Assembly: GCA_005879535.1 (NCBI GenBank)
Contig: VBKI01000089.1
Span: 1-53,690, forward strand
Direction of reading: 5' to 3'
Length of the DNA stretch: 53,690 nucleotides
From: Deltaproteobacteria bacterium
GTDB taxonomy: Bacteria > Myxococcota > Myxococcia > Myxococcales > 40CM-4-68-19
Below the pieces are notes generated by a model. That model was given only the letters and a program-made list of their open reading frames with translations, was not told the DNA's origin and made no database searches. This document shows, in pieces, positions 48,530 to 53,690 of the stretch. Both the position numbers and the translations under genes were made by a program. The stretch's first letter is position 1; the number at the start of each line of letters is the position of its first letter.

Positions 48530-50044
48530 ATGCGCTGGATTCGGATCGTCGCCCTTGGTCTGACCCTGATGCACTGCGGTGGGGAAGAGTCGAACTGGCG
48601 CGACCTCGCCGCGAGATGCGCGACGCCGCGCACGGGAACGGATCCGTTCACGGGTCAGGCGTACCCGGACAAGAGGGCGACGCTGACCGACGAAAAGAGC
48701 TGGCTGAAGGCTTGGACCGACGACACGTACCTCTGGTACAGCGAGGTACCGTCGGTCAATGCCGCGCAGTACACCAGTGTGACGGACTACTTCGATCAGC
48801 TGAAGACGCGCGCGACAACGCCTTCCGGAAATGACAAGGACCGGTTCCATTTCTGGTATCCGACCGCGGATTGGGAACAACTCTCCCAGTCCGGCGTCGA
48901 ACTCGGGTATGGCATCACCTGGGTCGTCCTGTCGCCTCCGAAGACGCTGCCACGGAACTGGGTAGTCGGGTACGTGGAGCCTAACTCGCCAGCGGACGGA
49001 AAGATCATGCGAGGTGCGCAACTCAAGCTCATCGATGGCGTGAACATGGAGACCGCGAACACGCAGGCCGAGATCGATGTGCTCAACGCCGGCCTCTCTC
49101 CGGCCAACATTGGAGAACAGCACACGTACACGGTCCTGGATCCGGGCAGTACCCAGAACCGCGACGTCCCCTTGCAGGCTGCCGGCATCACCACCAATCC
49201 CGTCCCCATCACGGGCGTCGTGATGGCGACCAACGGGAAGAAGGTCGGGTACTTGCTGTTCAACGATCACATCGCCACCGCCGAGCAGAGGCTCGTCGAT
49301 GCGGTGACTTCTCTCAAGGCGCAAAGCATCAACGAACTGGTGCTCGATATCCGGTACAACGGCGGCGGCTATCTCGCGATCGCGAGCGAGATCGCCTACA
49401 TGATTGCGGGCTCGGCCAGGACATCCGGGAAGATCTTCGAGCAGCTCACGTTCAACGCAAAGCATCCGTCGACCGATCCGGTCACCGGAAAGCAGATCAC
49501 CCCGACCCCGTTCTATACCCAGACGCTCGGATTCTCCGCCGCGGCAGGCACACCGCTGCCAACCCTGGATCTGCCGCGGGTCTTCGTTTTGACAGGCCCT
49601 GGCACGTGCTCCGCGAGCGAATCGGTCCTCAATTCGCTGGACGGCGTCGGCGTGCAGGTGATCCAGATCGGCGCGACGACCTGCGGCAAGCCCTACGGAT
49701 TCTACCCGGAGGACAACTGCGGGGTTACCTACTTCTCGATCCAGTTCAAGGGCGTAAACGCGAAGGGCTTCGGAGATTACGCGGACGGCTTTGCTCCGGC
49801 GGCGACGGCTCCGGTCGCAGGCTTCACCGGTTGCGTGATGGCGGACGACTTCACCCGCCCCCTCGGTGATGCAGGGGAGAACCGGCTGGAGACGGCTCTG
49901 AACTACATCACGACGGGGTCTTGCGGAACGCCTGCCGCAGCCACGGCGCTCATCACCGCACCGGGACCACGCGGCGACGGCGAGGTGCTGAAGTCCGTCT
50001 GGCGCCAGAACCGCATCATGACGATGCCCCGGACCGGCCGCTAA
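48530..50044 (+). CDS. S41-family peptidase (C-terminal-processing type), probable lipoprotein
   Basis: 504 residues from ATG 48530 with GGGGAGAG. The leader MRWIRIVALGLTLMHCGGEE may carry a lipid-attachment Cys at 16, though LMHC is an unusual lipobox. A PDZ-like region is present (NWVVGYVEPNSPADGKIMRG, LKLIDGVNM). The S41 core has LVLDIRYNGGGYLAIASEIA, the Ser nucleophile in GTCSASESVLNSL, and the general-base Lys in TTCGKPYGFYP. It cleaves periplasmic substrates. The stop shares bases with the stop of the convergent gene at 50041. Confidence 0.87.
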   Translation: MRWIRIVALGLTLMHCGGEESNWRDLAARCATPRTGTDPFTGQAYPDKRATLTDEKSWLKAWTDDTYLWYSEVPSVNAAQYTSVTDYFDQLKTRATTPSGNDKDRFHFWYPTADWEQLSQSGVELGYGITWVVLSPPKTLPRNWVVGYVEPNSPADGKIMRGAQLKLIDGVNMETANTQAEIDVLNAGLSPANIGEQHTYTVLDPGSTQNRDVPLQAAGITTNPVPITGVVMATNGKKVGYLLFNDHIATAEQRLVDAVTSLKAQSINELVLDIRYNGGGYLAIASEIAYMIAGSARTSGKIFEQLTFNAKHPSTDPVTGKQITPTPFYTQTLGFSAAAGTPLPTLDLPRVFVLTGPGTCSASESVLNSLDGVGVQVIQIGATTCGKPYGFYPEDNCGVTYFSIQFKGVNAKGFGDYADGFAPAATAPVAGFTGCVMADDFTRPLGDAGENRLETALNYITTGSCGTPAAATALITAPGPRGDGEVLKSVWRQNRIMTMPRTGR

Positions 50045-51717
50045 TCCATATCGATCGTCTGGAAGTTCCCGCCCGCGTCCAGCACCGTGCCCCACACCTT
50101 GTGGGACGCCTGGTGCTCGCTCATGCCGAATCCCATGGATGCGCCGACCCCGAGGTCCAGGCCGCGCAAGGACTCGAGGGCGTCGACCAGCGACTCGGTG
50201 GTGAAGTCGCGGCCCGCGCGCCGCAATCCCTCGATGAGCAGGGTGGCGGCGAGATATCCCTCGAGCGAAACGAAGTCCGGCTTCTCGCCGAGCGAGTATT
50301 TGGGCAAGAGATCCTGGTAGCGCATCACGGCCGTCGCCTTGCTGTGCGGCAGCGGGACCACCTGCGTGACGATGACGCCTTCGGCGACCTTTCCGCCGTA
50401 CGCCATCAGCTCGTCCGCCAGCGCCTGGCTGCCGACGAACGAGACATTGCTGAAGACGATGTCCGGCCGCTCCGCCTTCACCTTGTCGATGAACTTCGCC
50501 GCCGCCCTGTACGTCGAGACCATCACCACCGCCCGCACGGGGCGGCGGCTCTTGAGCAGCGTGTCCACCGCCTCGGCGACGTCGGTCGTGTTCCGCTTGT
50601 AGCCGACGCGCAGCGTGCGCTCCGGGTTGCGGTTGTACTTGCGCATCATCTTCGCCACGCCGTTGAACCCCGCGTCTCCGTAGCCGTCCTGCTGAGCGAA
50701 GACCGCGATCTCGTCCGGCGGAATCCGCCGGACGTCCACCAGGTACCGGACCGTCGACGCCGTCTCCTCCGCGTAGCTGGCGCGGTAGTTGAAGACGTAG
50801 CGATCGGGCGGATCGCGCCGCAGCAGGCCCGCGCCGGTGAAGGGACCGAAGAAGAGCATCTTCTTCTCCAGCGTGTACGGCACGGCCACTTCCGCGGTGG
50901 GCGTCCCGACGTTCCCGACGAATCCGAACACGTTGCGCGCCTCCGCCAGCTCCTTCATCACCGTGCGGGTACGGTCGGGCTCGTAGCCGTCGTCGAGAGC
51001 GACGAGGCGCAGCTTGCGCCCGTTCACGCCGCCCGCCTCGTTCGTCGCGGCGAAAGCGAGATCGATGCCGGTCTTCATCCCGCGGCCCAGCTCCTTGGCG
51101 GGGCCCGAGAACGGCGCCGCCATGCCGAAGACGATCTCCGTGTCGGTGACGCCCGGAACGCGCGAGCGCGTCTCGGCCTCCCGGTGGACCACCGCCGCCG
51201 CCTGCTGGCGCGCGGCCAGCGCTGCCGCTTCCTGCTGCGAGCGCCACCAGAGCGCACCGCCGACGACGGCGATGGCCACCGCGGCCGACGCGACCACGAT
51301 CAGCAGCATGGGGGAGCGCGGGGGCGGCGGGGGATGCGACTTCGGAATCATGATTTCCTCCGGTCCCGCGGCGGACTCGCCGGCGTCTTTTTTCGCGCCG
51401 TTCGACTCGTCGTCGGACACCATCTCCTCGAGCAGGAGCTTGTTGCAGGATTCCCAGATCGTGCGCTTCTCGGTGGTGACGTTGAGATCGACGTGGAACT
51501 CGCCCTCGCGCAGGCGCATGGCGCGGCGGACGGCGTCGAGGCCGGTCACGTGGCCGAAGCGGGCGTCGACGATCTCGCCCTTCTCCATGAACACGACCAC
51601 GTCGTGCTCCGGACCCGCGGGTGACACGATCGTCACCGCCGCCGTCTGCCGGCTGATGCTGTAGAACTGAATGAGGTCGGTGAACGACGTCTCCGACAGG
51701 TTTCCGCTCAGCGCCAC
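50041..51717 (-). CDS. DUF4388 (PATAN)-TM-periplasmic-binding-protein fusion
   Basis: 558 residues from GTG 51717, chosen because MALSGNLSETSFTDLIQFYS is the standard start of DUF4388; the frame is open to 52020. Order: DUF4388 (residues 1-115), an acidic linker, a Pro-rich stretch then one membrane helix (MLLIVVASAAVAIAVVGGAL), and a type I periplasmic binding fold like amino-acid ABC receptors (EIVFGMAAPFSGPAKELGRG, FVGNVGTPTAEVAVPYTLEK, VFAQQDGYGDAGFNGV). It looks like a sensor with a periplasmic ligand domain and a cytoplasmic regulatory domain. No ABC permease is nearby. Confidence 0.83.
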   Translation of the reverse strand: MALSGNLSETSFTDLIQFYSISRQTAAVTIVSPAGPEHDVVVFMEKGEIVDARFGHVTGLDAVRRAMRLREGEFHVDLNVTTEKRTIWESCNKLLLEEMVSDDESNGAKKDAGESAAGPEEIMIPKSHPPPPPRSPMLLIVVASAAVAIAVVGGALWWRSQQEAAALAARQQAAAVVHREAETRSRVPGVTDTEIVFGMAAPFSGPAKELGRGMKTGIDLAFAATNEAGGVNGRKLRLVALDDGYEPDRTRTVMKELAEARNVFGFVGNVGTPTAEVAVPYTLEKKMLFFGPFTGAGLLRRDPPDRYVFNYRASYAEETASTVRYLVDVRRIPPDEIAVFAQQDGYGDAGFNGVAKMMRKYNRNPERTLRVGYKRNTTDVAEAVDTLLKSRRPVRAVVMVSTYRAAAKFIDKVKAERPDIVFSNVSFVGSQALADELMAYGGKVAEGVIVTQVVPLPHSKATAVMRYQDLLPKYSLGEKPDFVSLEGYLAATLLIEGLRRAGRDFTTESLVDALESLRGLDLGVGASMGFGMSEHQASHKVWGTVLDAGGNFQTIDMD

Positions 51718-51841
51718 CCGTCGAGCGTACGACGGAGAGCAGGGCAACGCGAAATCCATCGTCAGTTGGCGCATCGCGCCGTCTATGACGGCCATCACGG
51801 GGGCGCGGTAGGCGTTTGTCGGGAATGTCCCTACCGGTACT

Positions 51842-52660
51842 TCACTGCTCCAACGTGTCGCAGGATGCCGCGGAACCTGTGTCGAGACCCGTCTTGAACC
51901 AGCGAGCGCGTTCGCGGGCGGAGCCGTGCGTGAACGATTCCGGCGAGACACGGCGGCCCGCCATCTGCTGGATGCGATCGTCTCCGACCGCGGACGCGGC
52001 GCGCAGGCCCTCTTCGGCATCGCCGGGATCGAGGAGCTGACGCTGCGCCGCGGAGTGGCCCCAGACGCCCGCGAAGCAGTCCGCCTGCAGCTCCAGCTTC
52101 ACGGAGAGGGCGTTGCGCCGTGAGGGATCCAGCCGCGTCGCGCGCTCGACCTTGGCGGTGATGCCGAGCAGGTTCTGCACGTGATGCCCCACCTCGTGCG
52201 CGATCACGTACGCCTGGGCGAAGTCGCCCGGGGCTCCGAATCGGCGCGCCAGCTCCCGGTAGAAGCCGAGGTCGATGTACACGCGCTCGTCGGGCGGACA
52301 GTAGAAGGGCCCCATCGCCGCGCCAGCGCCGCCGCAGCCGGACTGCGTCTCGTCCCAGAAGAGGACGAGCTTCGCATCGCGGTATCCGCGCAGGTTCTGG
52401 CCCCAGAACCGCTGCGTGTCGTTGAAGGAGCCGACGGCAACTTTCTCCAGCGAGGCTTCATCCTCTCGCCGCTGTTCGGCCTGCGGTCCTTGCGCCTGCG
52501 TGGCCGCGCCATTGTCTCCCACGAGCGCGAAGAAGTTCTGGCGGAAAACTATGCTGAGGACGCCGAGGAGGAGGATGCCGCCGATGCCGAGGCGCCCGCC
52601 GGTGATCAGGCCGCGCCGGTCCTCCACGTTGGATCGGTCGTCGTCGCCGCCGAGCCGCAT
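51842..52660 (-). CDS. YpfJ-like neutral zinc metallopeptidase
   Basis: 272 residues from ATG 52660. MRLGGDDDRSNVEDRRG is the usual start of the family; the frame opens at 52693. One membrane helix follows (GRLGIGGILLLGVLSIVF), then the metallopeptidase domain with the zinc motif AHEVGHHVQNLLG and the third ligand region ELQADCFAGVW. It has CPPDERVYIDLGFYREL upstream. A periplasm-facing or membrane-anchored peptidase of unknown substrate. No Shine-Dalgarno is obvious. Confidence 0.87.
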   Translation of the reverse strand: MRLGGDDDRSNVEDRRGLITGGRLGIGGILLLGVLSIVFRQNFFALVGDNGAATQAQGPQAEQRREDEASLEKVAVGSFNDTQRFWGQNLRGYRDAKLVLFWDETQSGCGGAGAAMGPFYCPPDERVYIDLGFYRELARRFGAPGDFAQAYVIAHEVGHHVQNLLGITAKVERATRLDPSRRNALSVKLELQADCFAGVWGHSAAQRQLLDPGDAEEGLRAASAVGDDRIQQMAGRRVSPESFTHGSARERARWFKTGLDTGSAASCDTLEQ

Positions 52661-52699
52661 CCGGACAATCTGCGTCGGCGCCGCCGCGCCCACAACCTC

Positions 52700-53038
52700 T
52701 CAGCGGGGGAGCAGACGTTCGAGCTTCTCCTGCGCATCCGCCGCGAAGCCCAGCGTCAATTCGCCATCCACCTCGATGATCGGGCGCCGCACTCGGCCAC
52801 CGTCCCCGGCGAGCCAGGCGATCAGCTTCTCGCCGGAGAGACCTTCCGATTCCTTGCGCCGCTTCGGCGCGACGAGCTGCTCCACACCGCCGGCCTTTTT
52901 CGACAGGGCGCGGAGCTCCGCCGCGGTGAGCGGCTCCTTGATCAAGTTGCGCTCTTCCACCGTCTGCTTCTTCCGCGCGAGAAACTCCCGCGCCTTCATG
53001 CAGCCGGTTCAGCCGGGCTTGCCGTAGTAGCGGATCAT
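52700..53038 (-). CDS. ArsC/Spx-family thioredoxin-fold protein, probable selenoprotein (in-frame TGA)
   Basis: 112 residues if TGA at 53009-53011 is read as selenocysteine. From ATG 53038 the codons give MIRYYGKPG-TGA-TGCMKAREFLARK; downstream are EERNLIKEPLTAAELRALSK, QLVAPKRRKESEG and RRPIIEVDGELTLGF, the Arg-Arg-Pro block of ArsC/Spx proteins. The TGA stands exactly at the first Cys of the family's CxxC, giving UxxC. Without recoding the gene would start at Met 52999 and lack the active site. A GC hairpin lies 15 bases after the TGA. Role: a thiol/selenol redox enzyme or arsenate-reductase-like; the reaction is unknown. Confidence 0.78.
52975..52993 (-). promoter_or_regulatory. Candidate SECIS hairpin for the in-frame TGA
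   Basis: On the minus-strand mRNA, GCGC-GG-GAG pairs with CUC-GCGC around a UUU loop (GG bulged). It begins 15 nt after the UGA at 53009-53011, the distance expected of a bacterial SECIS. Any GC-rich coding region can form hairpins, so this is suggestive only. Confidence 0.45.
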
Positions 53039-53099
53039 GCGCGCCAATCTATCCGGATACCTCTCGCAATGCATGGTCCCGAATTGCCAAGCTCAAACA

Positions 53100-53131
53100 T
53101 AGCCGCTAGTGGCCTTCGGCCGCCGCGGCTA
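53100..53131. repeat. Palindrome R4, related to R1-R3
   Basis: Outer stem TAGCCGC/GCGGCTA (53100-53106 and 53125-53131), same sequence as the outer stem of R3, with a shorter inner GGCC-TTC-GGCC hairpin. The tail differs from the other copies. The right end on the minus strand is the TAG stop of the gene ending at 53129, as with R1. It lies between that gene and the ArsC-like gene and may be its terminator. Confidence 0.55.
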
Positions 53132-53690
53132 CCGGAGCGCGAACGGCCACAGATGCAAAATCTTCGCGGCGACGGCCGCTGCTGCGACGAGCACCGCCGC
53201 GGTCCAGAACAGGCGGCGGCGCCTGCGCGCCTTGCGGTCCTCGAACGGATCGTCGAGAGAGCGCCTCGCGCCCCGTGGCAGCACCTTGAGATCCGTGAGC
53301 GCGGCCCCGAGTGGGATGTTGACGCGGACTCGCCCGTTCACCGCCCATCCATTTGCCTCCAGCACCGGCCCGAGCGTCCGCTGTCGCAGCTTGAGCCAAG
53401 CCAGCAACACCGAGGGACCCGAGATGGCGAGCATTGCCCCGAGGATGGCAAACGGTTTCGCGTACCAGGGTTGCAGGTTCATGAAGCCGGAGACGAAGCC
53501 GCCGAACAGCGTTCCGACCGCGCCGATGCCGACGCCGAGCGCCGCGACGATGCCCACCATCTTGCCCACGTCCACCGGACCGCTCGCCTGCGGAACGATG
53601 CCGGAATCCGCCGCAGCCTTGAGGCGCGCCTCGTTCTCGCGCTCTTTCGCCTCGGCGAACTTCTGCACCTGCTCCTCGATCAGGCGGAGT
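53129..53690 (-). CDS. Hypothetical membrane protein, 5' end cut by window
   Basis: The frame stays open to the right window edge (a GTG at 53668 is only an internal option), so the N-terminus is outside. About 187 residues are seen: a charged helical start (FAEAKERENEARLKAAADSG), two adjacent hydrophobic segments (VGKMVGIVAALGVGIGAVGT and PFAILGAMLAISGPSVLLAW), a soluble part with NGWAVNGRVRVNIPLGAALT, an Arg-rich stretch and a final helix (LFWTAAVLVAAAAVAAKI). Not recognised. The stop is embedded in palindrome R4. Confidence 0.65.
   Translation of the reverse strand, partial: LRLIEEQVQKFAEAKERENEARLKAAADSGIVPQASGPVDVGKMVGIVAALGVGIGAVGTLFGGFVSGFMNLQPWYAKPFAILGAMLAISGPSVLLAWLKLRQRTLGPVLEANGWAVNGRVRVNIPLGAALTDLKVLPRGARRSLDDPFEDRKARRRRRLFWTAAVLVAAAAVAAKILHLWPFALR

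Follow-up and report, generated by a model that had tools for sequence, protein, structure and literature searches.

Does an in-frame TGA that stands where ArsC- and Spx-type proteins carry an active-site cysteine encode selenocysteine (Sec), or does it end the gene? The question was raised by a small gene on the minus strand of the window, that is, the whole stretch of 53,690 nucleotides that was analysed (contig VBKI01000089.1, here C89). The contig belongs to a 5.16-Mb genome (G000) rated 100% complete, from a soil myxobacterium-like bacterium. Translation of the minus strand from 53038 to 52700 gave MIRYYGKPG*TGCMKAREFL...ERLLPR*, with TGCMKAREFLARKKQ... following the in-frame TGA, and both the gene coordinates and the TGA at 53011-53009 in the original prediction were exact. 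As had also been anticipated, automatic annotation would truncate the gene and lose the active site, since the ORF finder yielded only 99 aa in this frame, from the ATG at 52999. The features of the locus were as follows.

52700..53038, minus strand: open reading frame of the ArsC/Spx-like predicted selenoprotein, 112 aa including the predicted Sec at residue 10; coordinates include the stop codon
53036..53038, minus strand: ATG start of the full-length protein; the MI[RKQ][YF]YGKPG start is kept in the same-genus orthologues L017-L019, and the sequence upstream of the ATG is unrelated
53009..53011, minus strand: in-frame TGA, predicted Sec10 codon, aligned with Spx Cys10 and E. coli ArsC Cys12; TGA in 15/15 orthologues
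53000..53002, minus strand: TGC codon, Cys13 of the UxxC motif (putative resolving Cys); invariant in 15/15, aligned with Spx Cys13, Ser in E. coli ArsC
52997..52999, minus strand: internal ATG, the start chosen by conventional ORF calling, which leaves 99 aa without the active site; orthologues have V, K or T here
52975..52993, minus strand: candidate SECIS hairpin GCGCGGGA-GUU-UCUCGCGC (DNA GCGCGGGAGTTTCTCGCGC), 8-bp stem with a 3-nt apical loop, starting 15 nt past the UGA
52983..52985, minus strand: apical loop GUU with G first, 23 nt past the UGA, fitting published bSECIS constraints
52700..52702, minus strand: terminal TGA of the open reading frame, in the same frame
53668-53129: membrane protein gene, without a Pfam match; membrane call made by eye
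52693-51842: neutral zinc metallopeptidase gene (PF04228)

Homologues were searched for in relatives, the class and the phylum (up to 195 genomes). Fifteen orthologues were found, counting that of the window's genome and those of 14 others, all in the same order and 46-85% identical. The predicted Sec10 codon was TGA in every one of them and a Cys codon in none. Aligned to Spx and E. coli ArsC, whose sequences were verified against the PDB, the TGA column coincided with Spx Cys10 and ArsC Cys12, as the original prediction had expected, and all non-TGA homologues examined (Spx, ArsC and myxobacterial paralogues) carried Cys at that column. An independent collection, scanned with short exact peptides, contained two metagenome-assembled genomes with the TGA (Deltaproteobacteria bacterium 13_1_40CM_4_68_19 and isolate DP_11), with proteins identical to those of L017 and L020. 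These two named loci were all that the scan found, and orthologues of the other family (f4) escaped it.

Recurrence of the TGA in 14 other genomes argues against a read error. Differences between orthologues fell mostly at third codon positions across the entire frame (12/10/44 at positions 1/2/3 between the window and L017), which indicates selection on the read-through protein. That protein scored 26.2 bits against Pfam ArsC PF03960 (gathering threshold 24) and 30.4 bits against Pfam Glutaredoxin (gathering threshold 22.9).

The putative SECIS element was examined at the nucleotide level. The hairpin region codes for AREFLA, and its codons GCG CGG GAG TTT CTC GCG were identical in all 15 orthologues except for one TTC (L021), a change that weakens the top of the stem and shifts the minimum-free-energy fold of that stretch. 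Other invariant residues were written with mixed synonymous codons; a later invariant Phe was TTC in 14/15, and TTT is rare, at 5 of 74 Phe codons (about 7%) in five ORFs of the window. The exact 19-mer of the hairpin occurred 14 times in 147 genomes, each time in an orthologue of this gene (14/15). The looser pattern TGA-N19-GGGAGTTTCTC occurred 16 times in 195 genomes, 14 times in this gene and twice in other redox genes (L108 and L088), both with the TGA at an active-site Cys; its reversed control occurred twice. That the TGA, its flanking codons and the hairpin are all retained in 15/15 orthologues is not attributable to chance.

In a 15-row alignment of the hairpin, 4 of the 8 stem pairs had changed on both sides and 96.7% of cells paired, and none of 500 shuffles reached either covariation value. 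Compensated stem pairs were contributed by L108 (G007, NF041106-like), L088 (G006, glutaredoxin-like) and two members of NF041106, L104 (G182) and L105 (G190). L106 was left out because its register differs; its own fold was a 7-bp stem with a 6-nt loop. The bSECIS model requires a loop of 3-9 nt with G in the first two loop positions, a stem of 4-16 bp, a distance of 16-37 nt from the UGA and an MFE of at most -7.5 (PMC13188914). The window's hairpin, with its GUU loop, 8 bp, 23 nt and -13.3 kcal/mol, lay within all of these limits. The case for a SECIS element rests on conservation and covariation and not on energy: the hairpin was modestly more stable than shuffled sequence (z -2.84 with dinucleotide shuffling over 66 nt; z -0.8 with mononucleotide shuffling over 42 nt), and the energies alone are unremarkable for sequence so rich in GC. 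No Rfam family matched over 52600-53150. The hairpin 15 nt downstream of the TGA, first put forward as a SECIS candidate from a single sequence, was thus borne out by nucleotide-level conservation, covariation and agreement with the bSECIS model.

Several other TGA-containing redox genes were observed. L088 (G006:C295:2572-2604), in a same-genus genome, lies in a glutaredoxin/YruB-like gene reading ...DPT-TGA-QECCRVREFL; it shares the SECIS core, its stem bases being compensated, and is UXX-star-like, yet falls under all cut-offs. L108 (G007:C191:35167-35475) is an NF041106-like ArsC gene (62.8 bits vs a cut-off of 85) with a TGA at the Cys position and the same hairpin in compensated form. 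The relative of L108 in G012, L107, has Cys and lacks such a hairpin. Members of NF041106 elsewhere in the phylum (L103-L106) had Sec (G182, G190, G187) or Cys (G191) at the same column. Sec/Cys exchange has therefore occurred in NF041106; none was seen in the clade of the window's gene.

The genome was also searched for the machinery of selenocysteine insertion, whose absence would have told against a selenoprotein. SelA (500 bits), SelB (302.7 bits, both pieces of one frame combined), SelD (355 bits) and tRNA-Sec, the selC product (70.2 bits; called tRNA-SeC with anticodon tca, i.e. UCA, by ARAGORN), were all found above curated cut-offs. The SelD gene (G000:C33:15304-16236; loci L012 and L085) has an in-frame TGA of its own, in HGSG-TGA-ACK, so that the genome holds at least two predicted selenoprotein genes. 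A strong hairpin lies just downstream of that TGA and is different from that of the ArsC/Spx-like gene. tRNA-Sec was detected in 13/15 orthologue genomes and was not detected in G005 and G010, both of them fragmented draft genomes, 74% and 93% complete. selA accompanies the gene in all 15 genomes; as 130/147 genomes of the class have it too, this co-occurrence is consistent with the assignment and weakly informative, and it was discarded as proof.

Two other accounts of the TGA were weighed. It could be a true stop, in a pseudogene or upstream of a truncated protein of 99 aa starting at the ATG at 52999, from which a conventional ORF does run. Orthologues do not share that ATG, which would make the truncated call wrong, and a protein begun there would have no active site; the nine codons preceding the TGA are conserved, and the identical TGA is followed in fifteen genomes by sequence under purifying selection. 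With the conserved TGA, third-position bias, conserved start and unconserved internal ATG taken together, the read-error, pseudogene and truncated-protein readings fail, and a true stop must be rated extremely improbable. Alternatively, code reassignment or near-cognate read-through could make the TGA a Trp or Cys codon, with the hairpin incidental, and this would account for read-through of a UGA at one site. Against it, UGA still terminates this gene and several orthologues, and the genome encodes tRNA-Sec(UCA), selA, selB and selD. Every non-TGA homologue examined has Cys at this column, and the hairpin shows both constraint and covariation; this account is given hardly any weight either.

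The gene is almost certainly that of a 112-residue selenoprotein of the ArsC/Spx fold, with Sec10 predicted from the in-frame TGA. The earlier verdict of a likely selenoprotein is strongly supported by the TGA in 15/15 orthologues, by a hairpin that is both constrained and covarying, and by a complete set of Sec machinery. SelB and tRNA-Sec would place Sec10 at the UGA at 53011-53009, guided by the hairpin that starts 15 nt further on. The UGA at 52702-52700 of the same gene is probably read as an ordinary stop, because no SECIS follows it. In the protein, Sec10 would act as the nucleophile and Cys13 as the resolving thiol of a U-x-x-C centre.

The label ArsC/Spx-like held for the family fold and not for specific membership, two of the three arsenate-reductase arginines being missing and the scores falling under the Spx and NF041106 cut-offs. 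Novelty is also smaller than the original prediction implied: Sec-containing ArsC-like UxxC proteins are already known, and what is new here is a distinct clade of them. The cd03032 domain, which appears among the published examples, is taken here to be the Spx subfamily of ArsC. ArsC-like selenoproteins and a distant ArsC homologue have been described in Deltaproteobacteria (PMC1794560), a UxxS Sec arsenate reductase from the Sargasso Sea (PMC1088965), and a UxxC 'Arsenate reductase 2' with a cd03032 domain from the GOS data (PMC2398784), while NF041106 has been tabulated as 'Arsenate reductase-like protein' with UxxC (PMC13188914). Among the papers searched, none dealt with selenoproteins of Myxococcota or with a selenoprotein of the Spx type.

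NF041106 is the NCBIfam entry for the ArsC family (seleno)protein ArsC_rel_Se_1. Its proteins resemble the clade in having the ArsC fold with Sec in UxxC at the same column, and the member in G182 has its TGA and hairpin at identical spacing with one compensated stem pair; they differ in reading RAP where the clade reads RRP. Membership of the window protein was rejected at 36.6 bits vs a cut-off of 85. All 15 clade members matched the model weakly, and the NF041106 family search gave no match in G000 or its orthologue genomes. In a tree, 11 Sec rows of the clade and six NF041106-like rows were separated by a branch with 97/92 support, with ArsC and Spx on long branches of unsure exact placement.

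The clade is closer to Spx than to NF041106. Spx (TIGR01617, PRK01655; B. subtilis structures 3gfk, 1z3e and 7f75) is the closest solved relative by sequence and fold, and shares CxxC at the same place and the RRPII and GF/GY motifs. It has Cys10 where the clade has Sec, is 131 aa long vs 112 for the window's protein, and has a longer middle segment and a C-terminal tail. E. coli ArsC (1i9d) has the same fold as the query (TM 0.77), the same nucleophile position and the shared R94; it is CxxS where the clade is UxxC, and the clade lacks R60 and R107. The marine Sec arsenate reductase 1 (PMC1088965, PMC2398784) likewise has Sec in place of the ArsC catalytic Cys, but as UxxS, the arsenate-reductase branch of the fold, and not as the UxxC of the clade. 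'Arsenate reductase 2' of the GOS marine metagenome shares UxxC and an ArsC-type domain with the clade, a likeness drawn from its description.

What the protein does was approached from its fold and motif. An AlphaFold2 model had a mean pLDDT of 89.5 and came closest to the Spx-alpha-CTD complex 3gfk (E 1e-8, TM 0.83), followed by other ArsC-family proteins, and a profile search ranked Spx first (3l78, 2.3e-16). The fold, together with U-x-x-C having Sec10 as putative nucleophile and Cys13 as resolving residue, points to a small thiol-disulfide (selenenylsulfide) oxidoreductase or redox relay, not an arsenate reductase; we consider the former probable.

The same Spx matches could mean that the protein is an Spx-like redox-sensing regulator which binds the RNA polymerase alpha-CTD with U-x-x-C as its switch. 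Gly stands at the Spx Gly52 column in all compared orthologues but one (G067), and Spx R92 is conserved. Gly52 belongs with R60 and K62 to the alpha-CTD interface of Spx, and the K62 column reads Arg or Lys. Scores were nonetheless far under the Spx/MgsR cut-offs (44.1 vs 75.05 bits for TIGR01617; 47.5 vs 123 bits for PRK01655), Spx R60 is replaced by Lys (Asn in G067), the segment from Gly52 to RRP is several residues shorter than that of Spx, and the Spx C-terminal tail is absent, so a regulator is tentative at best. More speculative still is a fuller version, that these are uncatalogued Sec-containing Spx-like regulators of this order whose selenenylsulfide (UxxC) switch controls RNA polymerase binding, and whose near-frozen SECIS module also serves UXX-star-like glutaredoxin and NF041106-type ArsC genes. 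A selenium-dependent arsenate reductase is less probable than either. Pfam ArsC does reach its gathering threshold, and known Sec forms in the ArsC fold carry that name. Of R60, R94 and R107 of E. coli ArsC, which we take to be its oxyanion-binding arginines, only R94 is present; the R60 column is Ala (Lys in one orthologue, G067) and the R107 column is gapped, which argues against an arsenate reductase of the E. coli kind and led us to drop it as the lead function. TIGR00014 matched only 9/15 members, at E 1.5e-6 or weaker, and its set of residues (Cys12 with R60, R94 and R107) was represented by R94 alone, with Sec at the Cys12 column. Among the neighbouring genes that could be identified, none was an arsenic gene.

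The gene stands alone between the membrane protein and neutral zinc metallopeptidase genes. The closest relative retains the membrane protein upstream, with a periplasmic-binding-protein gene directly following the predicted selenoprotein gene; more distant orthologues shared neither neighbour. Being conserved in the closest relative only, the neighbourhood was set aside as a clue to function. The metallopeptidase ORF (51842-52693) overlaps a mechanically called DUF4388/periplasmic-binding-protein ORF (50041-52020) by 179 bases (51842-52020), on one strand and in different frames; to judge by the relative L014, the latter gene may start later.

Read as a selenoprotein of the ArsC/Spx fold, probably an oxidoreductase or relay, the gene adds a distinct and well-supported selenoprotein clade, most likely in the order Myxococcales. 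The proteins of this clade would be truncated past the active site in standard annotation, and they go undetected by current NCBIfam models when the model cut-offs are applied. Its SECIS carries an unusual amount of information: a single 19-nt hairpin hardly changes from genus to genus, and related genes have compensated variants of it. This makes it a good test case for SelB recognition in these bacteria. Replacement of Cys by Sec at the redox switch of an Spx-like fold poses cleanly the question of catalyst or sensor.
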